NCBI GenBank assembly: GCA_945861885.1
Contig: CAMAVR010000005.1
Coordinates: 48,019-112,018 of the forward strand
DNA length: 64,000 nt
Origin: Nannocystis exedens
GTDB lineage: Bacteria > Myxococcota_A > Polyangia > Polyangiales > Polyangiaceae
Reading direction: 5' to 3'
Below the pieces are notes generated by a model that had not been told where the DNA came from, ran no database searches, and saw nothing but the letters and a program-made list of their open reading frames with translations. The position numbers were made by a program, and so were the translations under genes. Positions within the stretch are counted from its first letter, which is position 1. Every line of letters starts with the position of its first letter. Positions 9,079 through 63,907 of this stretch are shown one piece after another.

Positions 9079-10089
9079 ATGCGCGCGTTTGAAATTGAGG
9101 CGTTTGGGTTAGAGCGGCTCCGGCGTGTCGAGCGCGCGCCGCCGCGCCCTTCAGCTACGCAAATGCTGGTTCGTGTAGGGGCCGCATCGCTGAATTTTCG
9201 CGATTTGCTGATGATCGGCGGCGACTACAATCCAAAGCAGCCGCTCCCGCTCATCCCCGGTTCCGATGGCGTCGGTGAAGTGGTCGATGTCGGCGCGCAA
9301 GTATCGCGCTTTAAAAAAGGCGATCGGGTTATCACATCGTTTTTTCAAGCATGGGAAAGCGGCGAGGCGACACGTCAAAAACTGCTATCGACGCTGGGCG
9401 GGCCCATCGACGGCACGTTTGCCGAGATGATGCTTGTCGAAGAGCAAGGCGCGGTATTGGCGCCGGCCTACTTGAGCGACGAAGAGGCGGCAACACTTCC
9501 ATGCGCGGCGCTCACCGCGTGGAATGCGCTCGTGCATCAAGGGGCGATTCGGGCTGGCGAAACAGTTCTTGTGCAGGGGACAGGCGGCGTCTCGCTGTTC
9601 GCGCTTCAATTCGCGCGGATGCACGGCGCCCGCGTCATCGTGACATCGAGCAGCGACGAGAAATTGCAGCGCGCCAAAGAGCTCGGCGCATGGGCGTGCA
9701 TCAACTACAAGAGCACGCCAGATTGGTCGAAAATCGCCCGTGAGATCACAGGCGGCAACGGCGTCGATCACATCGTCGAAGTCGGCGGAGCCGCGACCCT
9801 AGAGCAGTCGATTCGATGCGTGCGCCACGGCGGCGTGATTAGCCTCATCGGCATATTGTCAGGCGTAGCAACGCCGGTCCTGCTGACGCCGCTGCTCATG
9901 CAAAGCATAAGAATTCAAGGGGTCTACGTAGGGCCACGCGAGCTGTTCGAAGAGATGAACAAAGCGCTCGAAGTGAATAATTTGCACCCAGTAGTCGACA
10001 AAGTATTCGCTTTCGACGAGCTACCAACCGCGCTAGCGCGAATGAAACAAGCAGCCCATTTCGGCAAAATCGTAGTGCGAATGCGCTAA
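9079..10089 (+). CDS. Zinc-type alcohol dehydrogenase / quinone oxidoreductase family protein
   Basis: 336 residues from the ATG at 9079; the longer reading frame from 8851 lies inside the upstream gene and is rejected. It has the GroES-like N-terminal fold (SLNFRDLLMIGGDY, GSDGVGEVVDVG, FKKGDRVI) and a Rossmann domain (VLVQGTGGVSLFALQFAR, VIVTSSSDEK). The usual zinc-binding Cys/His set is largely missing, which places it near the zinc-independent NAD(P)H:quinone reductase-like branch. Substrate cannot be told from sequence. The last nine codons and stop are part of a 46-bp tandem duplication. Confidence 0.85.
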   Translation: MRAFEIEAFGLERLRRVERAPPRPSATQMLVRVGAASLNFRDLLMIGGDYNPKQPLPLIPGSDGVGEVVDVGAQVSRFKKGDRVITSFFQAWESGEATRQKLLSTLGGPIDGTFAEMMLVEEQGAVLAPAYLSDEEAATLPCAALTAWNALVHQGAIRAGETVLVQGTGGVSLFALQFARMHGARVIVTSSSDEKLQRAKELGAWACINYKSTPDWSKIAREITGGNGVDHIVEVGGAATLEQSIRCVRHGGVISLIGILSGVATPVLLTPLLMQSIRIQGVYVGPRELFEEMNKALEVNNLHPVVDKVFAFDELPTALARMKQAAHFGKIVVRMR

Positions 10090-10152
10090 GCCCTGTGATC
10101 CTGAGCTCGGCAAAATCGTAGTGCGAATGCGCTAAGCCCTGTGATCCTGAGC
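10061..10152. repeat. 46-bp perfect tandem duplication across a stop codon
   Basis: Bases 10061-10106 are repeated exactly at 10107-10152. The first copy contains the last nine codons and TAA of the dehydrogenase gene plus 17 nt of 3' flank; the second copy is untranslated. Perfect identity suggests a recent event. Confidence 0.95.
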
Positions 10153-17126: not shown

Positions 17127-19688
17127 ATGAGCTTGTCGCCGGAATCGAAGCGCCCAAAATCCTCCCAATCGTCAAAAGACGAACTTTTCGAAAACGACGC
17201 GCAAGCCTTTCGCCGCGGGCGGTTAAGCCCTGTAGCGATCGTTATCAGCACGTCGATTGCGCTCGGCGCGGCAGGCCTATTTGCGCTCGCGCTTCGCACC
17301 GAAGCCGAGGTCGTCTCGCCGGAGCAAATCGCCCGTTTACGAAGCGACATGGCGAAGAGTGAGCCGTCCGAAAAGCTAAAAAAAGCAAGGCTATGGGCCG
17401 CGCGAACCGACGTTCCAGCGATGCAGCAAGAGGCCTTCGCCGAGCTCGCATGGGCCAAAGAAAAAGATGGGATCGCCCTGATGATCGCGGGGCTTTCGTC
17501 GAGCGATCATCGCGTGCGTGGCGCGGCCGCTCAAGCACTTATCGAATACGATGCGGCGGCGAGGCTCGCCGTGCCGCACCTACAGCCTGCGCTTCGCCAA
17601 GCAAAGAGCGGCGACCGGCCGCAGATCGCATGGGCCCTCGTGGTGATGAAAGACGCGTCGTCGGTCGACGCGATCATCGAGGAGTACAAGCTCGGCCATC
17701 TAGCAAGGGTCGAGCGAATCGACGGCCGGCCGGCGTTCGATCCAGAGCTGCTAGCCGCGATGCTGCCGACCGAAAAGCTCCCCGCGCTGATCGCAAGCGA
17801 CAGCGAAAGCGTGCGTCAGCTCGCCGCAACCGCGCTCAACGCGCGAGTGAGCGACGGCGCCGATAGCGAAGCCGTCTCTTCACTGATCCGCCTAGTTCAA
17901 GATAGGTCGGTCGACGTAGCGCGCGAAGCGGCCGTCGGTCTAGGCAAAGCCGGCAGCGAAAGGGCGGTCACACCGCTGCTCGCCGCGCTTGAGAGATCCG
18001 ATCGCGATTCGCGCGCGAGGTTCATCGATGCGCTGCGCGATGGCGTCGGCGCAAAAGGTCTTATTTTGGCGCTAAAATTGGCAAAAAACGCCCCTGCAGA
18101 GCGGGTGAAGTTTCAGACAAAACAAATTTTCGACCAGCTACGTGACTTGGCCGATCCGCGAGGCGCCGATCTTTTGGCGCAGTACATCGACGTTGAAACG
18201 TCGCCTCACTGGAAGACAGAGGCGGCGTTTCGCCTTGCGGAAATCGGCGACGTGCGAGCCATTCCAACGCTCGCATGGCGCCTCACACAAGACCCAGTCG
18301 CGCTGTACGACAAAGCGGTCGATCCGGAGTACACGCAAGACGACAACGAGCGGGTCGTAGCCGCGCGAATGATCGCCGACCTAGCGATTCTTTATCCGGA
18401 TCTGCGCGAAGAGATCAGGGGGCTAACTGAACGGCCAGCCCTTCATTGGGCAAACGATCGGCCGGAGCCGCACGCCAACGTAATGCGTGTTCTCGCCGCA
18501 ACACACGCGACAAGCGGCCTGCCAAAATTGCGTGAATGGGCCAATCCAAAAATGCCGCTGCCCAAAGAGGGCGATCAGGTTTTTTCGGCGAAGTGGGGCA
18601 CCGCGCAGAGCGCGTTACGGTATCTCGGTTGGATGCAAGACGGCGCATCATGGTCGCTCTTGGAGCGGCAGCTCAATCGACGACCCGCCAAGATCGATAC
18701 GACAACCGAGGCGCTAAGTGGCGGTGGCCTTGCCGTGCTGGGGATGACGCTTCGCGGGCTTGCTGTTGGAGCGTCCGATGGTTTTGCTCAGTGGGGCGAT
18801 TCAAAAGCGTTTGCGGTGCTAACAAAGTTTATTGACGAGCCGCTCAATAACGAGCAGGCGCGAATGCAGGCGTGTGCGGCGCTTTCATGGGTCGCAAGCG
18901 ACGAACAGATGCAAGATGTCGTCAAGCAGGTGCGGGCGCTTGGGCGTGATGCCAAGAGTGCGGCGAGACGCAGCTGCTATCTAGAAACGTTAATCCGCCG
19001 GCCAGCACCATCAGCGACGCAGCCGCTCGTCGATTTACTTCAAGCCGACGTTGAAATGGACGTACGCCATCAGGCTGCGCGAGCGATCGGCATGGGTGGG
19101 GTGACGGCGGAGGTTTCTGCGGCGCTGGTGCAGCGGCTGTCAGATGTCAATCTGCGCGCCGACGTAACTTTGGCGCTTCTGTTAGGCGGCGATGAAGAGC
19201 ACGCGACCGGCGCTCTTGCATCTTACAACGACGCGAATCCAGAAGCGCTTGAGGAGCTCAAGTCGATTTACCAGAGCTCGTTTGGCTATTGGAGCGATCG
19301 CAACTATGCGTCAGGCGACTTGTCGCGATGGGTTCGGAACGCCGAAGCGTGCAGGCACGTTCGTGTCAACGGCGCGCTTCAAGAATGGCCGAGTCGGCTG
19401 CTGTCACGGGCGCTTCAAGGGGTCGAGTTTGACAACGGCCCGCATTCTCTCACACGCGTGCAGCTCCGGGCGTGGCTCACGAGAGCTGCGAGGTCAAGCG
19501 ACAGACAAGCAAGCGCCGCGGCGGTCGAGCTGCTCAAATTTATTCGCGAAAAAGGGGTATTAATGGCCCTCCGCACCGAGCGAGGGCATCTCGGCGACAG
19601 CGCGCGAGCAGCCCTGTTTGACGTGATGAATCCAAAGGTGGTCAGCGAGGAGGCGGGTGAAGTGGGGCGGGCGACTCGCACGAGGTAA
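17127..19688 (+). CDS. HEAT-repeat membrane-anchored protein
   Basis: 853 residues. A short cytosolic N-terminus is followed by one membrane segment (about 36-57), then a long array of alpha-helical HEAT-like repeats. Many units show the A.A...L......A...L pattern, for example the segments starting DHRVRGAAAQAL, SVDVAREAAVGLG, and DVRHQAARAIGMGG. Such solenoids act as scaffolds for protein binding; no enzymatic motif is seen. The gene stands alone, divergent from mutT and followed by a 35-bp-arm palindrome. Partner unknown. Confidence 0.8.
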   Translation: MSLSPESKRPKSSQSSKDELFENDAQAFRRGRLSPVAIVISTSIALGAAGLFALALRTEAEVVSPEQIARLRSDMAKSEPSEKLKKARLWAARTDVPAMQQEAFAELAWAKEKDGIALMIAGLSSSDHRVRGAAAQALIEYDAAARLAVPHLQPALRQAKSGDRPQIAWALVVMKDASSVDAIIEEYKLGHLARVERIDGRPAFDPELLAAMLPTEKLPALIASDSESVRQLAATALNARVSDGADSEAVSSLIRLVQDRSVDVAREAAVGLGKAGSERAVTPLLAALERSDRDSRARFIDALRDGVGAKGLILALKLAKNAPAERVKFQTKQIFDQLRDLADPRGADLLAQYIDVETSPHWKTEAAFRLAEIGDVRAIPTLAWRLTQDPVALYDKAVDPEYTQDDNERVVAARMIADLAILYPDLREEIRGLTERPALHWANDRPEPHANVMRVLAATHATSGLPKLREWANPKMPLPKEGDQVFSAKWGTAQSALRYLGWMQDGASWSLLERQLNRRPAKIDTTTEALSGGGLAVLGMTLRGLAVGASDGFAQWGDSKAFAVLTKFIDEPLNNEQARMQACAALSWVASDEQMQDVVKQVRALGRDAKSAARRSCYLETLIRRPAPSATQPLVDLLQADVEMDVRHQAARAIGMGGVTAEVSAALVQRLSDVNLRADVTLALLLGGDEEHATGALASYNDANPEALEELKSIYQSSFGYWSDRNYASGDLSRWVRNAEACRHVRVNGALQEWPSRLLSRALQGVEFDNGPHSLTRVQLRAWLTRAARSSDRQASAAAVELLKFIREKGVLMALRTERGHLGDSARAALFDVMNPKVVSEEAGEVGRATRTR

Positions 19689-19703
19689 ACCTGCGATCTG
19701 CCC

Positions 19704-19790
19704 CGTACACGTGCCCGTGCCCGTAAACGTGCCCGGTTTTTCTTCCGCGATGGAGAGAAAAACCGGGCACGTTTACGGGCACGGGCACGT
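19704..19790. repeat. CGTAAACGTGCCC-family repeat, copy 1: perfect 35-bp-arm palindrome
   Basis: Bases 19709-19743 are the exact reverse complement of 19756-19790, with a 12-nt loop. The left arm contains the repeat core (CGTACACG...ACGTGCCCGG) seen also at 52314 and 63868; it is preceded by GATCTGCCC as at 63868. It lies 15 nt after the HEAT gene stop. T5 and A5 runs sit inside the stem, so it could act as a bidirectional terminator, but the repetition suggests a dispersed element. Confidence 0.9.
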
Positions 19791-41816: not shown

Positions 41817-42776
41817 ATGGGGACCGCGGCGATTTATCGGGTGATCGGCGCTATCGGCGTCGTTGTCGGCGCATATGCGTGCACCGTCCTCAGCCAGCCC
41901 ACCCCCCTTGACGTTGAGGACGGGCTGCCTAATTTCCCGGGGGTGAAGGGGTGTCAGGCCGGTCAGCCCGGGTGTGGATGTTCGGCAGAAGGCGTTAGCA
42001 TGGCATGCGGTGAGGTCACGCAGAAGAGCGGCGATTACCTTACATGCTCGGAAGGCCACTCGATCTGCCAAGGCGGAATATGGCAGAAGTGCGATGGGGC
42101 TCGCGATTTAACCGGGGGCGCGCGGTTCGTAAAAAGCGAAGCCGACCTCATTCGTGTGCCGCTCACGGTTGACGACTCGGCGATTTGTGACTGCGCGTCA
42201 AAAGAAAGCCAATGCAGCGCATGCAACCGAGATGAATGCACCGAATACGTCACCGAACTCACCGATGCATCGGCGCCAGCGCGATTGCCCGACGGATTCG
42301 ACCTCGGCCCGGGCGGAGGGCTGACGCTTGAGCCGATCAACGCCGGGGTCGACGCATCGACCAGGCGCCACTACGAGCGAAAAACATTTGTCGAGGACTT
42401 CGTTGCCGATTGCGAAGTGGGCTTCGAGCCGAGATGGCGCAAGTTCGCTTTCGTCGCCGATATCCCTAGGAGTGACGCCGGGGCTGCGTCGGTGTCGATC
42501 GCGGTGCAGTCTGGGGGCGACTTATCGTCGTTGCAGTCGAGTCGGGCACTGCTACTTGGTGAGTCAACAACGAGCACACCGGTCTATGGGGGCGAGCGCA
42601 CTTGGGACAGCTTTTTGATCGACACAAGCTCACCCGAAGCAAATCTTCAATCGGGAATACTTCTCCGCGCTTTCGTCGCGCTAGCGCCAACGCCCGACAT
42701 CGACGAGAACACAGGTTTTGAGTCGCCCACAGTTCTAAAATGGGAAGTGGAGAGCGAGTGCTTGAGGAGCAACTGA
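41817..42776 (+). CDS. Cys-rich hypothetical lipoprotein
   Basis: 319 residues with a lipoprotein-type start (lipobox GAYAC). Residues 45-150 contain many Cys (for example CQAGQPGCGCS, CDCASKESQCSACNRDEC), probably disulphide-linked outside the cytoplasm. The C-terminal half is a beta-rich domain. No known family recognised. The stop overlaps the start of the NtrC-type regulator gene (TGATG), so the two are probably co-transcribed, possibly as sensor-associated surface protein and regulator. Confidence 0.6.
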   Translation: MGTAAIYRVIGAIGVVVGAYACTVLSQPTPLDVEDGLPNFPGVKGCQAGQPGCGCSAEGVSMACGEVTQKSGDYLTCSEGHSICQGGIWQKCDGARDLTGGARFVKSEADLIRVPLTVDDSAICDCASKESQCSACNRDECTEYVTELTDASAPARLPDGFDLGPGGGLTLEPINAGVDASTRRHYERKTFVEDFVADCEVGFEPRWRKFAFVADIPRSDAGAASVSIAVQSGGDLSSLQSSRALLLGESTTSTPVYGGERTWDSFLIDTSSPEANLQSGILLRAFVALAPTPDIDENTGFESPTVLKWEVESECLRSN

Positions 42777-44122
42777 TGTCCAAAGTTCTTATCGTTGACG
42801 ACCAAAAAAATATGCGCACGACCCTCGGCATGATGCTGAGAGGAGCCGGCTACGAAGTCGACGAAGCGGGCGATGGCGAGCAGGGGACCGAGCGCGGAGC
42901 GACCGGCGCGTTCGACCTCGTGCTCACCGATTTACGAATGGGGAACAAAGACGGGATGGACGTTTTGCGCGCCACGCGAGAGGCGCACCCATCGACCGAA
43001 GTGATCGTGATGACGGCGTTCGGGACGATCGAAGGGGCCGTGCAAGCGATGCGGCTCGGCGCGTTCGATTTTATTCAAAAGCCGTTCACCGAAGAAGAGC
43101 TGCTCGTCAAAGTCGCGAAAGCGCTAGAAAATAGGCGTATTTCGCGTGAAATCGAGTTTCTCGCGAACGAGTTTAAAGACCGCTACAAGTTCGAAAATAT
43201 CATCGGGCGATCGCCGGCGGTGCGCGAAGTGCTCGGCCGCATTGTGCGCATTGCGCCGACCGACGCGATTGTTCTCATCACCGGCGAGAGCGGCACAGGT
43301 AAAGAGCTCGTTGCCAAAGCGATTCACGCCAACTCAAAAAGGGCCGACAGGCCATTCATCCCGGTCAACTGCGCCGCAATCACCGAAACGCTGCTCGAGA
43401 GCGAGCTGTTTGGGCACGCACGAGGGTCATTCACCGGCGCAGTGAGCGCGCGCAAAGGGCTCTTCGAAGAGGCCGACGGTGGCACATTTTTTTTCGACGA
43501 GATCGGCGAGACGCCGATAGCGTTTCAAGCAAAGCTGCTCCGCGCAATTCAAGAGAATGAAATTCGGCGCGTCGGTGAAAACAAAGCGATTCGCGTGAAC
43601 GTTCGGATTATTGCGGCAACCAATCAAGATTTGATGACAGCGGTCAGCGAAAAGCGCTTCCGCCAAGATTTGTACTATCGCCTAAACGTCGCGCGCTTTC
43701 AGCTCCCCGCGCTACGCGATCGCCGCGAAGATATCCCCGAGCTCGTCGGTTACTTTCTAAAAAAGTTCAACCGCAAAATGGGCGTCACATCGCGCATCGA
43801 CGATCGAGTGATCGACGCGCTGTCGCGTTTTGATTTCCCGGGGAACATCCGCGAACTTGAGCACATGATCGAGCAGGCGGTCGCCCTCGCGCAGGACGGC
43901 GTCATTTCAATCGACGACCTCACGCAGGCGACATCAACATCGCATTTGCCGGCAAGAGGCGATGCGCACACGCTGGCCGACGTCGTCGACGCAGCAGAGC
44001 GAGAAGCGATTGTGGCGGCGCTGCGGGAATGCGAGGGGAATCGCGAAAAAGCGGCCGACGTCTTGGCAATATCGCCGACCACTCTATGGCGGAAAATGAC
44101 ACGGCTGGCGGTTACATTTTGA
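42776..44122 (+). CDS. Sigma-54-dependent NtrC/AtoC-type response regulator
   Basis: 448 residues from the ATG at 42776. Receiver domain (about 1-120) with Asp in LVLTDLRMG and Lys in FIQKPF; AAA+ domain (about 145-375) with GESGTGKE, the sigma-54 contact loop in its GSFTGA variant, Walker B FFFDEIGE; and a Fis-type HTH (EGNREKAADVLAISPTTLW). It should activate sigma-54 promoters when phosphorylated. The kinase is not adjacent. The upstream lipoprotein overlaps it. Confidence 0.93.
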   Translation: MSKVLIVDDQKNMRTTLGMMLRGAGYEVDEAGDGEQGTERGATGAFDLVLTDLRMGNKDGMDVLRATREAHPSTEVIVMTAFGTIEGAVQAMRLGAFDFIQKPFTEEELLVKVAKALENRRISREIEFLANEFKDRYKFENIIGRSPAVREVLGRIVRIAPTDAIVLITGESGTGKELVAKAIHANSKRADRPFIPVNCAAITETLLESELFGHARGSFTGAVSARKGLFEEADGGTFFFDEIGETPIAFQAKLLRAIQENEIRRVGENKAIRVNVRIIAATNQDLMTAVSEKRFRQDLYYRLNVARFQLPALRDRREDIPELVGYFLKKFNRKMGVTSRIDDRVIDALSRFDFPGNIRELEHMIEQAVALAQDGVISIDDLTQATSTSHLPARGDAHTLADVVDAAEREAIVAALRECEGNREKAADVLAISPTTLWRKMTRLAVTF

Positions 44123-44148: not shown

Positions 44149-44388
44149 CTCAGAATCTGTCGAAAAAAGCGTTTCGCCAGATTCTTCACTTACCATCACG
44201 GGGAGGCACGCGCCTCCCCGCCCCAAAAAACGAGGTTTTTTGGAGGTCCCCACCCCGTCAACCATCACGGGGAGGCGCGCGCCTCCCCGCCCCAAAAAAC
44301 GAGGTTTTTTGGAGGTACCCACCCCACGCGGGCATGCCTCCGGCATGCAATTCGGATTTGTCGAAAAAGAAACTGCTTTTTTCGACAA
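44149..44388. mobile_element. MITE-like multi-hairpin element, copy 1 (240 bp)
   Basis: Perfect 13-bp terminal inverted repeats TGTCGAAAAAAGC (44158-44170) and GCTTTTTTCGACA (44375-44387) enclose a chain of hairpins: a CGGGGAGGC/GCCTCCCCG stem, a CCAAAAAA/TTTTTTGG stem, and a GCATGCC/GGCATGC stem. The first two are duplicated here as a 69-bp tandem unit (44193-44261 and 44262 on). Copy 2 lies at 48749-48919. Length 240 is divisible by 3, and a frame of 142 codons runs through it from GTG 44130 to 44558, in the same phase as copy 2. No transposase. Confidence 0.85.
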
Positions 44389-44734
44389 GTCTTCAGCCAA
44401 AGCGCATGTTTTTGTTTTATTGGGATCAGGTAGCCGACTCGCGGCGATACCAAATAGGCTCTCACCGAACTGCTATCTTTCCACCGTCGAGGGTGGTTGA
44501 GGTTGCTCAGCCTCGGGGTCATTGCTGCAAGAATGAGATTTCATTACTTCATTTCTGAAAGGGGCCGTGGCCCTAGAGTTTGTGAAAGAGGCCTTTTTTG
44601 TCGCTTACAGTGAATGGCCTAGGACTTGCTTAGCTTCCAAGTAGGCGCGGAGCGGTCCTAGTACCCGGCTCCCCGCCGAAATCTTTCGCTGCGGGAGGGC
44701 CAGCTGCCATTTGCGCGCTACCTTTCTGCAGCCG
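44389..44734. other. Non-coding stretch before queA
   Basis: About 345 nt between the repeat element and queA. It has short inverted stretches (for example GAGGTTGCTCAGCCTC around 44499-44514 and a GGCC...T6 around 44591-44600) but no gene or known RNA was recognised. The queA promoter is probably here. Confidence 0.4.
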
Positions 44735-48720: not shown

Positions 48721-49785
48721 ATGAACTTTCTTAATTCCAAGCAAACCACTCAGAATCTGCCGAAAAAAGCGTTTCGACAGATTCTTGACTTGCCATCACG
48801 GGGAGGCACGCGCCTCCCCGCCCCAAAAAACAAGGTTTTTTGGAGGTCCCCACCCCACGCGGGCATGCCTCCGGCATGCAATTCGGAGTTGTCGAAAAAG
48901 AAACTGCTTTTTTCGACAACGCTTTATTGCGCGTTTTTTGTCGCCGCCGTGCTTACAGCGTGCAGCGGAGTGGGGAGCAACGCGTCGAATCGGGAGCAGG
49001 GGCGCCCTGCCGTCCGTTCGCCCGACGCAGGGGGCGAGGTCACTCCATCCGCTGACGGCGGCAGTGCCGGAGAGCCCGACGCAGGCGGCTTTGTGGTTGC
49101 GGAGTCAACGTGCCGACCGATCGACCTATCGAGCTACACACCGGCCGCGGGGCACAAAAATAAGCCATTTCATTCAGGCGACTGTTCGGTCGATGACCTT
49201 CAAAACTTTTCAGATCGCTGCCTTGGTCGGGAGACAGCGGTATTGTCCGCGGCCTGCGTGTCGTGGCGCGCGGCAAATCAGCGTTGCGAAAAGTGCCTTC
49301 TCGCGCCCGAAGCGTCGGGTTCCGACCCAGCGGTCGAGCAAGGGCCGATCGTCGCAAACGCTCTTGGCGAGCTCGATGTAAATTTGCAAGGCTGCATCGA
49401 CAGCGTGGGAGCAGGTTGCGGTGCGCTTCAGCTCGCGTGGGATCAGTGCTCAGAGGTTTCATGCAGCACCGAGCCAGCGGGCAATTGTGCCGGCCTGCGC
49501 GAAACATCGCCGAAGTACCAGGCGTGTATGTCGGCGGCAAAAAGCGGCGGATGCGCCAAATATCGCACGGTTCTTCAATCGACATGCGCTTCAGATAGCG
49601 CATCCGAAGAGTCGTATATGGCGGGGATTAGCCGGTGCTATATCAAGTCGTTCGCCTGGCCAGATCAACGGGCGACGTACATGGTCTACGCCGAGCTATT
49701 CTGTGGCGCAGAGGCGGCGCTCCCAGTCGCGGTTCCGCCAGATGCGGACGGCGGAATTGTCGACGGCGGCGCCACAGCGGAGTGA
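48721..49785 (+). CDS. Cys-rich lipoprotein whose N-terminus is encoded by the repeat element
   Basis: 354 residues in the frame from ATG 48721; an alternative start at ATG 48865 (inside the repeat) gives a clean lipoprotein signal: MPPACNSELSKKK, a hydrophobic stretch, and lipobox VLTAC. Residues about 10-67 (TQNLPKKAF...SKKKLLFST) come entirely from the 171-bp element at 48749-48919. The mature part has a DAGG/DGG linker and a Cys pattern (GCIDSVGAGCGALQLAW, CMSAAKSGGCAKYR) shared with the next gene, a tandem paralogue. Function unknown; surface role likely. Confidence 0.7.
   Translation: MNFLNSKQTTQNLPKKAFRQILDLPSRGGTRLPAPKNKVFWRSPPHAGMPPACNSELSKKKLLFSTTLYCAFFVAAVLTACSGVGSNASNREQGRPAVRSPDAGGEVTPSADGGSAGEPDAGGFVVAESTCRPIDLSSYTPAAGHKNKPFHSGDCSVDDLQNFSDRCLGRETAVLSAACVSWRAANQRCEKCLLAPEASGSDPAVEQGPIVANALGELDVNLQGCIDSVGAGCGALQLAWDQCSEVSCSTEPAGNCAGLRETSPKYQACMSAAKSGGCAKYRTVLQSTCASDSASEESYMAGISRCYIKSFAWPDQRATYMVYAELFCGAEAALPVAVPPDADGGIVDGGATAE
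48749..48919. mobile_element. MITE-like multi-hairpin element, copy 2 (171 bp)
   Basis: Terminal repeats TGCCGAAAAAAGC (48758-48770, one change from copy 1) and GCTTTTTTCGACA (48906-48918). Hairpins: AGAATCTG/CAGATTCT (48752-48785), CGGGGAGGC/GCCTCCCCG (48799-48820), CCAAAAAA/TTTTTTGG (48823-48843), GCATGCC/GGCATGC (48863-48879), TTGTCGAAAAA/TTTTTCGACAA (48889-48919). It has one copy of the 69-bp unit that is doubled in copy 1. Length is 57 codons and it is read through in the lipoprotein gene. Confidence 0.85.
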
Positions 49786-51124: not shown

Positions 51125-52318
51125 TTGTCCTCGTCTCGTCAGAGGGCGTATTTTTCGCGCCGAAGTGCGTTTGACGAGCGTCTCAATCGTGTTGCGTTGG
51201 CGATCGCCCGCGCTCACGAGCAGCGTCGACATTACCTCGACCTAACGTTGTCAAATCCTACCGAAGCGCAGCTCCCTTACGCGACCGACGCCATCGTTGA
51301 ATCGCTCGCGTCGCGCGGTGCGCTGAGCTATTCGCCGAACCCGTTCGGAATGTTGAGCGCTCGCGAAGCGATCGCGGGCCATTTTCTCGAGCGCGGGCTA
51401 ACTATTTCACCAGAGTCGTTGATGCTTACGGCGAGCACCAGCGAAGCGTATTCGTTTCTTTTCAAGCTGCTCGCCGACCCGGGCGACGACGTGCTTGTCC
51501 CCGAGCCGAGCTATCCGCTCTTCGAGCATCTCGCCGTGTTTGAATCGATCCGTCTCAGACCCTACAGACTGGCATACGACGGCCGCTGGCACGTCGATCT
51601 CGACTCGGTCAGTCGGGCGATCACACCTGAGACGCGCGCCATTATCGTAGTATCGCCGAACAACCCGACCGGGTCGTACATCAAGCGCGACGAACTCGAT
51701 GCGATTGCGGAGCACGGCATTCCGATCATCGGTGACGAAGTTTTCGCGCGCTATTCGCTTGAGGACGACGACGCGCGAGCCCGAAGCGTTCTCGAGGCGC
51801 GTGGAGTATTGACGTTCGCGCTTTCGGGGTTGTCAAAAGTTGCCGCGATGCCGCAGATGAAGGCGGCGTGGATTGCCGTCGGCGGCCCGCCTGCTGATGT
51901 CACGTCGGCGATGACTCGGCTCGAGCTTATCGGCGATACATTCTTGTCGGTGTCGACACCGATTCAGAATGCGCTCCCAGATTTGCTGCGCCATTCACGA
52001 GCGACAGAGAGCGCAATTGTCGCGCGAAGTTACGCAAATATGGCCGTCGCCCGCGGCCTGTTCGCGCCGCCGTCAGCCGCATCGCTTCTTCACGCAGAAG
52101 GCGGATGGTATGTGACGGTCCGTCTGCCGCGTCTCATTTCTGAAGAAGAGTGGGTGATCAGTCTGTTTGAACAAGATGGCGTTCTCGTTCATCCAGGGCA
52201 TTTTTTCGACATGCACGATGAAGCGTACATCGTCATCAGTCTGCTAACGCCCGAGACTGAATTTGCCGAGGGAATGTCGCGAATTGCAAGGAGAGTAAGC
52301 GACCTATCCGCCCCGTAA
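51125..52318 (+). CDS. PLP-dependent class I/II aminotransferase
   Basis: 397 residues from a TTG. Fold type I with LTLSNPTEAQLP, TASTSEAYSFLFKLLADPGD, VVSPNNPTGSYI, DEVFARY, the PLP-lysine in LSGLSKVAAMPQMK, and an end typical of aspartate-type transaminases. Specific amino acid not determinable. The TAA stop (52316-52318) lies within the CGTAAACG repeat, which also supplies the last residue. Confidence 0.87.
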   Translation: MSSSRQRAYFSRRSAFDERLNRVALAIARAHEQRRHYLDLTLSNPTEAQLPYATDAIVESLASRGALSYSPNPFGMLSAREAIAGHFLERGLTISPESLMLTASTSEAYSFLFKLLADPGDDVLVPEPSYPLFEHLAVFESIRLRPYRLAYDGRWHVDLDSVSRAITPETRAIIVVSPNNPTGSYIKRDELDAIAEHGIPIIGDEVFARYSLEDDDARARSVLEARGVLTFALSGLSKVAAMPQMKAAWIAVGGPPADVTSAMTRLELIGDTFLSVSTPIQNALPDLLRHSRATESAIVARSYANMAVARGLFAPPSAASLLHAEGGWYVTVRLPRLISEEEWVISLFEQDGVLVHPGHFFDMHDEAYIVISLLTPETEFAEGMSRIARRVSDLSAP

Positions 52319-52346
52319 ACGTGCCCGTGCCCGTAAACGTGCCCGG
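52314..52346. repeat. CGTAAACGTGCCC-family repeat, copy 2
   Basis: Two CGTAAACGTGCCC cores joined by GTGCC, in the same orientation as the left arm at 19704 and the copy at 63868. Only one arm is present. It overlaps the aminotransferase stop codon and lies 13 nt before the end of the convergent glycosyltransferase gene, so it may act as shared 3' structure. Confidence 0.9.
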
Positions 52347-52359
52347 CTTTCTTCTGGTA

Positions 52360-57274: not shown

Positions 57275-58108
57275 CTAGTTGCGCGGCTTAAGAACTAAAA
57301 GTGCCGGCCCCGACCAGACGTATCTGGCGACAGACCCTCTCGCTGGTCTGGCGACAGACCCTCTCGCTGGATCGGCGGACTTAAATCGTGTGCGAATGGA
57401 CATCATCATCTGACCGACATGATTCATGCCTGCCTGGTCTTTGCCGGTGCCCCAGAGGCCATTGTCGGATGAAAAAATCAGGACAGTGGGATCGGTCTTG
57501 ATCAGTTCAGCTCGTGCATCTTCCGAAGTTGCAAACCAGTTCCAAAGACCGGCGAGCATTGCGTCGAGCTGTGACGAAACGTCGGACTCCACCGTTGCGT
57601 TCGCAAAGAACTCATGCGTGGAAGCGCTCGCGAGAATCTTGTTTGCGTCGCCAGGAGCCCCAATAGTGGTCGCTTGCTCAGCCGTGACGTCATTCCAAGT
57701 CTGGCCGTCCATAGCGGGGTAGGTGCCCGCGGCGGTCGATTCTGAACGTCTTGCATTCAGGGCGCTGCTGAGCGGCGGCAGGCCAAAAGGGCCGGCTACT
57801 GGGGAAAGCGGGGCCCCGCCGCCGTCGTGTCCACGGGCAGGTGTTGGCGGACTAAGCGGTGGTGCGGCGTCGCCGTTGTCCGCTACCGGCGGGACGGTGT
57901 CGTCGTCTTCTTCTTCGGTCGACTCGGATCCGGAGGCCGTGTCGGCACGCTCTTTTGGCCTAGTGTTGCTGTCTCGCTCGTGGAACGGGGCGGCCGGTTC
58001 GGCTGCATTCTCGCCGTCGCTGCACCCCTGGGCCAGAACTAGGGTCGTCGCAGTCGTTGCGGTCAACGCAAGCGCGGATAAAAACGGTCGAGTCAATCGA
58101 GCGATCAT
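57275..58108 (-). CDS. Hypothetical lipoprotein with acidic linker
   Basis: 277 residues from ATG 58108 (GGAG upstream). Lipobox LAQGC. A long linker rich in D, E, P and G (about 25-105) is followed by a domain of unknown type (about 110-250). The end has a doubled PARGSVAR unit produced by a 24-bp tandem repeat. No family recognised. Confidence 0.55.
   Translation of the reverse strand: MIARLTRPFLSALALTATTATTLVLAQGCSDGENAAEPAAPFHERDSNTRPKERADTASGSESTEEEDDDTVPPVADNGDAAPPLSPPTPARGHDGGGAPLSPVAGPFGLPPLSSALNARRSESTAAGTYPAMDGQTWNDVTAEQATTIGAPGDANKILASASTHEFFANATVESDVSSQLDAMLAGLWNWFATSEDARAELIKTDPTVLIFSSDNGLWGTGKDQAGMNHVGQMMMSIRTRFKSADPARGSVARPARGSVARYVWSGPALLVLKPRN
57323..57370. repeat. 24-bp tandem repeat (two units) in a coding end
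   Basis: 57323-57346 is repeated exactly at 57347-57370. Being 24 bp, it keeps frame and duplicates eight residues (PARGSVAR type) near the lipoprotein's C-terminus. Confidence 0.92.
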
Positions 58109-61875: not shown

Positions 61876-62430
61876 CCTAGGGCCCGATCTCAGTGCGCCA
61901 GGCAAAGCCTGGATGAGGGGAACGGAATGTAGCTAAAACAACTGAAACCTCATGTAGCAACCCAGCGGGTTCAAATCCCGACCGGCCAAGTTAGACCAAC
62001 AGCCGGAAGCGAGTCTTGCGTGGTCGTAAAAGAAGCGACGGGAAACCGTGACTGCGAAGCGTAGACAGCGAGTGTGCAGGCCGCGTGATTGAGCCACGAA
62101 ATCAACTTCTTTGTGAGAGCCGACGCCGTTGAGATAGCGGAAGGCAACACCGATGCACAATTACAGGGCGATGCCCGACGGGCCAGAGTGCAGAGGTCTC
62201 ACCGGGGTCGTAGAACGGGGCATGCAAACGAGGGTTGTCCAGGAACCTGGGAGGCCCAGACGTCATCGTCGACGAGACGATAAAACTGCGGAGTGAGCAT
62301 CACGTGAGCGAAGCAGGGGCGCCGGGGCGTCGGAGTGCCGCAGTAGTACCGCCGAAGTTGGGGAACCGATCTACACGGGACCCAATGGAGGGAAGGGCGG
62401 CACCAAATTACGGAATCGTTGAAGGGACAG

Positions 62431-63817: not shown

Positions 63818-63867
63818 GTGAGGGCCCTCGGACAACCGAGGGCTACTCGACAAATCTGATCTGCCCA

Positions 63868-63907
63868 CGTAAACGTGCCCGTGCCCGTAAACGTGCCCGG
63901 TTTTTTT
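63868..63907. repeat. CGTAAACGTGCCC-family repeat, copy 3, with T7 run
   Basis: Same 33-bp core as at 52314, preceded by GATCTGCCC like the copy at 19704 and followed by seven T. It begins 17 nt after the intron 3' end and ends about 54 nt before the four-helix-bundle gene. Confidence 0.9.

Follow-up and report, generated by a model that had tools for sequence, protein, structure and literature searches.

The window, by which we mean the whole 64,000-nucleotide stretch of DNA analyzed here, carries two copies of a short hairpin element 4355 bp apart (Table 1). The ORF preceding copy 1 terminates with a TGA 27 nt upstream of the element. Both copies start with TCAGAATCTG and contain a 13-bp inverted repeat, TGTCGAAAAAAGC / GCTTTTTTCGACA, which is perfect in copy 1, as reported in the initial annotation, and has one mismatch in the left repeat of copy 2. 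That annotation had described a 171-bp structure of five hairpins shared by the two loci; the shared structure is real but its true limits are wider, and five hairpins are found in copy 2 but seven in copy 1 through duplication. The extra 69-bp unit that had been noticed in copy 1 is a tandem core (65-nt match, 97% identity, spacing 69). The order of parts in the element is H1, linker, H2, H3, C-rich linker (CCCCACCCC), H4 and H5, with CGGGGAGG..CCTCCCCG as the arms of H2. Pattern searches of the window, with mismatches allowed and palindromes scored on both strands, found H2 six times, the end four times and H3 six times, against dinucleotide-shuffle expectations of 0.08, 0.15 and 0.03. At the right-end TGA of copy 1 the minus frame is open for 7 codons only; the same TCA/TGA position is the stop codon of the neighboring gene in the relative G021 and in one further copy of the window's own genome (L007, on C11).

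Table 1. Coordinates of the two element copies, their parts and the adjoining reading frames in the window.
Feature	Position	Strand	Remarks
ORF before copy 1	42740..44122	+	looks like sigma-54-type response regulator; name from appearance
Element copy 1	44150..44395	+	TCA to TCA, 246 bp, core twice in tandem
H1, copy 1, left terminal hairpin	44152..44185	+	AGAATCTG...CAGATTCT
Left 13-bp inverted repeat, copy 1	44158..44170	+	
H2, copy 1, first unit	44199..44220	+	
H3, copy 1, first unit	44221..44246	+	A6/T6 stem
Second core unit, copy 1	44261..44325	+	97% to 44192-44256
H2, copy 1, second unit	44268..44289	+	
H3, copy 1, second unit	44290..44315	+	
H4, copy 1	44332..44348	+	GCATGCC-TCC-GGCATGC
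H5, copy 1, right terminal hairpin	44358..44388	+	
Right 13-bp inverted repeat, copy 1	44375..44387	-	
Right-end TCA of copy 1	44393..44395	-	TGA on minus strand
Element copy 2	48750..48926	+	five hairpins; right end TTA in place of TCA
H1, copy 2	48752..48785	+	
H2, copy 2	48799..48820	+	
H3, copy 2	48821..48846	+	
H4, copy 2	48863..48879	+	
H5, copy 2	48888..48920	+	also terminator-like in consensus scan
Possible lipoprotein gene	48889..49785	+	would start at TTG inside H5 of copy 2 (inferred start codon)

The genome from which the window was taken (G000, 3.42 Mb) holds seven copies in total, together with one remnant (C14:57929) in which the left end is joined to the right end without a core. 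The six stretches other than copy 1, copy 2 included, are 91-97% identical to copy 1; one of them (C54) has a broken right end, and copy 1 is the only one of the seven with two core units. The element is thus neither limited to two copies of one segmental duplication nor absent from relatives. Being short (176-246 bp), non-coding and multi-copy (seven in G000 and at least 40 scored in G021), the element is of the MITE type with inverted-repeat ends, in keeping with the first description of it. At gathering score no Rfam family matched the element; the window gave only a group II intron and tRNA, the intron being a domain match (RF02005, 125.7 bits) at 61972-62217. The window also contains two perfect tandem duplications, one of 46 bp (10061-10152) and one of 24 bp (57323-57370).

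Rickettsia palindromic elements are short palindromic repeats with open frames. They are listed in PMC10969869, and the initial annotation had likened the window element to them on the grounds that both lengths were multiples of 3 and that the same frame was open in both copies. The shared open frame is there but is not diagnostic, because four of the six G000 copies with both ends are open in every plus-strand frame, and open frames accompany a stop-poor palindromic sequence. The lengths of these six copies are 246, 177, 177, 176, 178 and 177 bp, so that 176 and 178 depart from the multiple of 3 and the frame is not preserved in 2/6. Moreover, the copies examined are located near gene ends and, unlike the Rickettsia repeats, are not inserted in frame inside genes, with copy 2 as one possible exception. 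Copy 2 continues in frame into the lipoprotein-like ORF, whose open frame extends back to an ATG at 48721 (48721-49785). In this frame H5 reads TTG TCG AAA AAG AAA CTG; the translation, (M)SKKKLLFSTTLYCAFFVAAVLTAC..., resembles the signal peptide of a lipoprotein, and copy 2 may supply the signal-peptide start in this single case. A GGAG abuts the TTG directly, which is poor spacing. Taken together, an in-frame coding palindrome of the Rickettsia kind is extremely improbable.

A covariance model of the core (H2, H3 and the C-rich linker) matched 11 of 378 Myxococcota genomes, G000 included, all of which fall in the window's own family, in 8 genera; the hosts are several related soil-type bacteria. 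By blastn, 7/59 genomes matched, that is, six relatives besides G000. The filters of the covariance-model search were strict and may miss copies, and two blastn-matched genomes (G001 and G035) are absent from its results, having been either not drawn or lost. Loci were read after this search for 11 of 13 matches in G022, 5 of 9 in G374 and 0 of 3 in G003. Among the genomes discussed below, G374 is a congener of G026, G133 of G004, and G059 of G021. A form of the element without H1 was seen in several relatives: a stop codon meets TCATC and the core directly in L394, L404 and L416 (G133), L018 (G004) and L014 (G035), and in G374 (L382, L421, L422) the stop codon precedes the H2 stem by 13-16 nt.

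Folding representatives from G000, G004, G021, G026, MAG-89 and the JACPVJ genome gave the same hairpin layout, with H3, H4 or H5 weak or missing in some of them. The core is almost invariant; H1, H4 and H5 vary among genera, and the ends and stem sequences differ from one genus to the next. Covariation was assessed on a core alignment (A3), because RNAalifold, when given the alignment of whole elements (A1), puts the terminal hairpins out of register. A3 comprised 15 sequences (14 distinct) of 17 stretches found (L397 and L425 were left out and L014 was not found), and in H3 its G021/G147/G022-type rows are shifted by one column. In this alignment 92.1% of cells were paired and both sides had changed in 7/19 pairs; in H2, for example, A-U became C-G in four rows and C-G became A-U in two. 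None of 500 shuffles matched the observed cells paired, pairs changed, cells changed or covariation score; the observed value of a fifth measure, pair types, was reached by 71/500, and every measure fell when the partner was slid by one to three columns. The core stems are maintained through paired changes, as the initial annotation had anticipated in naming compensatory changes, and the shuffles, which keep shared ancestry in, support this rather than prove it. On the minus strand of the core (for instance at 44217-44256 of the window), conserved paired G-tracts, GGGGNGGGG, flank H3 on both sides and, judged from sequence, might fold into a G-quadruplex whose loop would be H3.

The most informative feature of the element, which the initial annotation could not see, is its position at stop codons in the relatives. 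In G021 (ACE_MYX3, JAHBVX), 40 copies were scored from 125 first-look candidates. The right end of these copies reads CTTCA or TTTCA, which gives TGA on the opposite strand, and this terminal TGA was in frame with an open frame of more than 100 codons in 38/40 copies (the exceptions being L156 and L223). Since GC-rich DNA has long chance frames, we used the other two frames as the comparison: they were open over this length in 21/40 and 5/40 copies, and at 200 codons or more the TGA frame was open in 34/40 copies, the others in 10/40 and 1/40. A stricter gene caller placed the stop exactly at the element in 32/39 copies with a called left neighbor, one copy being without any. Six extra places were found with the H1 pattern, and the four that were read were all in frame over at least 290 codons, although one (L274) was equally open in another frame. 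TCA was present on both sides in 31/40 copies. Given the left-end triplets (TGA 31, CGA 8, TGC 1), a clean 3-bp duplication is only putative, and no flanking consensus was found in G021 beyond C-TGA-G. Neighboring genes were convergent at 26/39 copies, compared to 258/603 of all genes (p = 0.002).

Stop codons were also met in other genera. The G026 set (CANJCO), a sample of copies among the matches listed that contains one G005 locus (L105), gave 59 left and 56 right distinct ends with a stop triplet at 54 and 38 of them, respectively. Among these listed matches, the in-frame reading extended over at least 200 codons at 18/54 left and 15/38 right stop-triplet ends, compared to 4 and 0 in the other two frames on the left and 4 and 1 on the right; 245 control CTAR sites gave 33, 49 and 28 in the three frames. 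With the stricter gene caller 16/56 left ends among the matches listed were exact. Some G026 end pairs disagree with each other, which counts against the model given below. In G133, TAA or TAG stands immediately before the core in 3/5 loci; in G147, seven matches yielded five located right ends, of which 4/5 were in frame (L387 being equally open in another frame); and TAG was found at several of the 11 loci read in G022. Frames of at least 400 codons in G004 have their TAG at a right end of the element (L011) or at a single end (L315, L333), but L024 does not follow this pattern. In the window's own genome the count also runs against the model: 1/6 right ends lies exactly on a stop codon (L007, a frame of 301 codons), and for the remaining copies the distance to the closest gene end is 2-86 nt.

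The proteins that end at the element appear to be whole. A Pfam scan of 30 of the 38 G021 proteins gave matches for 23, several of which run almost to the last residue: the KH domain of Der is complete (to residue 491 of 497), the Alpha-E domain runs to residue 304 of 306 and Pirin_C to residue 486 of 490, and the match of a lipoamide-dehydrogenase type protein to 460 of 473. A homologue search with 80 proteins ending at an element left 21 rows past the filter, mostly distant. In three informative comparisons with element-free homologues, the pirin L174 was 61% identical to L334 over the last 69 residues with TGA at the identical residue, the M16 peptidase comparison (L222 against L336) came out one residue shorter, and for L114 against L126 the end lay one codon past the aligned part. 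A preA-like gene, named by its domains, has an element on its stop codon in both G021 (L219) and G026 (L130). The two orthologues are 82% identical over 300 residues, and their elements differ in ends, stop codons and orientation, which is opposite; given the copy number, this double hit may be chance. Twenty stretches sampled for empty sites in G059, which has no element match, gave protein matches to G021 of 28-46% identity that were not usable, and no empty site at a shared locus was obtained from a close strain.

A matching insertion sequence was found in one genome. G026 carries a single IS of 1347 bp including both CTAA copies, arranged as CTAA-CAGG...CCTG-CTAA (hyphens mark the junctions), with the ends CTAA-CAGGACGTTGAG and TTTCAACACCCTG-CTAA. 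Its 385-codon frame matches an IS5-family transposase (273 bits, cut-off 140), and its ends differ from the element ends by 3 and 1 mismatches in 16. This IS does not clearly coincide with a stop codon, a further point against the model. Related plasmid IS have YTAR-CAGG ends in 4/6 cases, with exact duplication in three; in the other two (L358, L360) ends of this type are absent. Equal 4-bp flanks were present in 12/34 rows listed, of which some are mis-cut, one is repeated and two are from G004; all five rows with left CTAA have right -TAA, and three rows with right -TAA have a different left flank.

The resemblance to IS5-family MITEs (ISAzs10-like, NF033581) includes, in G026, the CAGG ends, a probable CTAR duplication and the one matching transposase gene, as well as a palindrome arm in G004, TAGCAGGCTGCTGAA, that is identical to the end of a Methylocella IS. 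The G000 and G021 ends differ, however: those of the window copies read TCAGAATCTGTCG... rather than being of the YTAR-CAGG type, and the five-hairpin core is absent from the IS ends read. A partner of the window's type would be expected to carry TCAAGAGCTGTC or TCAGAATCTGTCG ends. The partner search for these types was negative: no transposase with the C-TCA / TGA-G ends of G000 and G021 was found with PF01609 and PF01797 in G000, G004, G021 and G026, none of the seven DDE_Tnp_1 loci of G000 bears the window's ends, and a protein search for the IS5-type transposase in 8 genomes including G000 matched only G026 and G001. The G001 relative (L354) was rejected as a partner for want of matching ends. 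With up to two mismatches the G000-end pattern occurred at 92 places, compared to 64 in a reversed control, and the four non-element places with 0 or 1 mismatch (on C8, C13, C18 and C46) proved unrelated. We infer that the G000 elements were moved by an enzyme of the IS5/DDE kind, as in G026. A second dispersed repeat, GTAAACGTGCCCGTGCCCGTAAACGTGCCCG, lies in the window at 19685-19740, 52295-52350 and 63849-63904; in L345 of G000 an inverted pair of it surrounds a DDE transposase match, and the repeat is probably an IS end.

Hairpins at both ends could instead indicate a REP-type element whose hairpins are the substrate of a Y1 transposase (RAYT/IS200-like). The element shares with REP/BIME sequences that it is a dispersed extragenic palindrome, and the solo palindromes in G004 would suit such an origin. 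Unlike REP/BIME with RAYT, it has no general Y1 partner in the four genomes searched: the family was detected in 1/4, as a single 26.9-bit match in G021, and not in G000, G004 or G026, and DDE transposition would account for the inverted-repeat ends and the apparent CTAR duplications. A Y1-driven origin is therefore very unlikely. The G004 palindromes themselves (L311, L327, L335; 34-36 bp, TAGCAGGCTGCTGAA..TTCAGCAGCCTGCTA) are like core-less joined IS ends.

We consider it likely that the element is a MITE family whose stop-containing target is duplicated at insertion, which mends the stop, and that selection leaves copies at gene 3' ends. According to this model, a non-autonomous DNA transposon family of the window's bacterial family would carry the conserved core between terminal hairpins that serve as transposon ends, these ends being replaced or diverging from genus to genus. 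A DDE transposase (an IS5-family one where the partner is visible) would insert the element into a short target that holds a stop codon: CTAR (TAG/TAA) or C-TGA-G (TGA). Because the target motifs CTGAG and CTAR contain a stop codon, their duplication would regenerate it, and where the target is a real stop codon the protein would be left whole. Insertions into genes and promoters would be removed by selection, so that copies would pile up at gene 3' ends, chiefly between tightly packed convergent genes, where the transcribed hairpins would join the 3' untranslated end.

The alternative that the transposition machinery itself recognizes stop codons or gene 3' ends, for example via translation termination or the transcript end, makes a different prediction for the available target sites. 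In 800 kb of G021, a rough gene caller with elements left unmasked counted 99 stop codons within CTGAG motifs and 124 CTSAG sites that fall wholly between genes, nine of these 124 between convergent genes. Were insertion tolerated at all intergenic sites, stops should hold 44% of copies (99/223), and the observed 38/40 would speak for targeting (p = 1e-11). If only convergent, promoter-free sites are safe, the motif alone predicts 92% (99/108) and the observed fraction is unexceptional (p = 0.34). In G026, by the same rough calling, 18 free CTAR stops face 94 intergenic sites, and among the matches listed roughly a third, or a larger share, of the left and of the right ends is at a stop; the case for targeting is weakened because putting back the 18 CTAG/CTAA stops occupied by elements raises the stops to 36 against 94. 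For five end types the junction coincides with a stop codon in some copies at least, which would also be expected of a targeting machinery, but the flanks in G021 offer it no consensus beyond C-TGA-G. We therefore regard active targeting as unlikely, and similarly improbable is the broader proposal that the core exchanges its transposon ends from one lineage to another and reaches stop codons by active delivery, serving genes as a mobile 3' end. A self-mending target together with purifying selection is the simple account, and motif and selection can suffice.

A further possibility is that the hairpin array is beneficial as a mobile 3' end, acting as a terminator or mRNA stabilizer and positively selected at gene ends. 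The paired changes that keep the core stems, the excess of copies between convergent genes and the precedent of SPRITE repeats near CDS 3' ends (PMC3049150) would all agree with this, although the paired changes may serve transposition instead and 367/378 genomes have no match. Further, a consensus scan for U-tract terminators gave no excess (6 terminator-like sites compared to 7.3 in shuffles), one of the six being H5 of copy 2. The hairpins could plausibly act as terminators or otherwise at 3' ends, but positive selection as the reason for their position is a doubtful, if tenable, explanation.

Repeats with some of these properties are known from other bacteria. BOX of Streptococcus pneumoniae is described as modular and structured, with a variable number of tandem middle units (PMC3049150); the present element is also modular with a tandem middle unit, two of which occur in one of the seven G000 copies. 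The likeness is one of description, the host is different, and a stop-codon position is not part of the description of BOX consulted. SPRITE, from the same species, is a hairpin repeat enriched near CDS 3' ends, but it is described as one duplex with a U-rich tail (PMC3049150), unlike the several hairpins of our element, which show no U-tract excess. One copy of QMITE2 in Coxiella burnetii lies at a gene 3' end, where in one strain a stop codon immediately precedes it (PMC5896051); in contrast to the recurrent position seen here, this is a single case that the report ascribes to an indel. Among the papers listed in a literature search, judged by the openings of their abstracts, there was no report of stop-codon-sited MITEs, of this end sequence or of such repeats in Polyangiaceae.

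Returning to the likely explanation of a self-mending target, the element would be a clear case of a mobile element that targets a stop codon itself and repairs by insertion its own damage, which would explain how dozens of copies persist in a genome that rough gene calls put at about 90% coding. The retention of the core stems in the face of changing ends points to a selected function of the core, which may act at the 3' ends of transcripts. The family also raises a testable question: whether stop codons are found by these transposons, or are merely the sites at which they survived.
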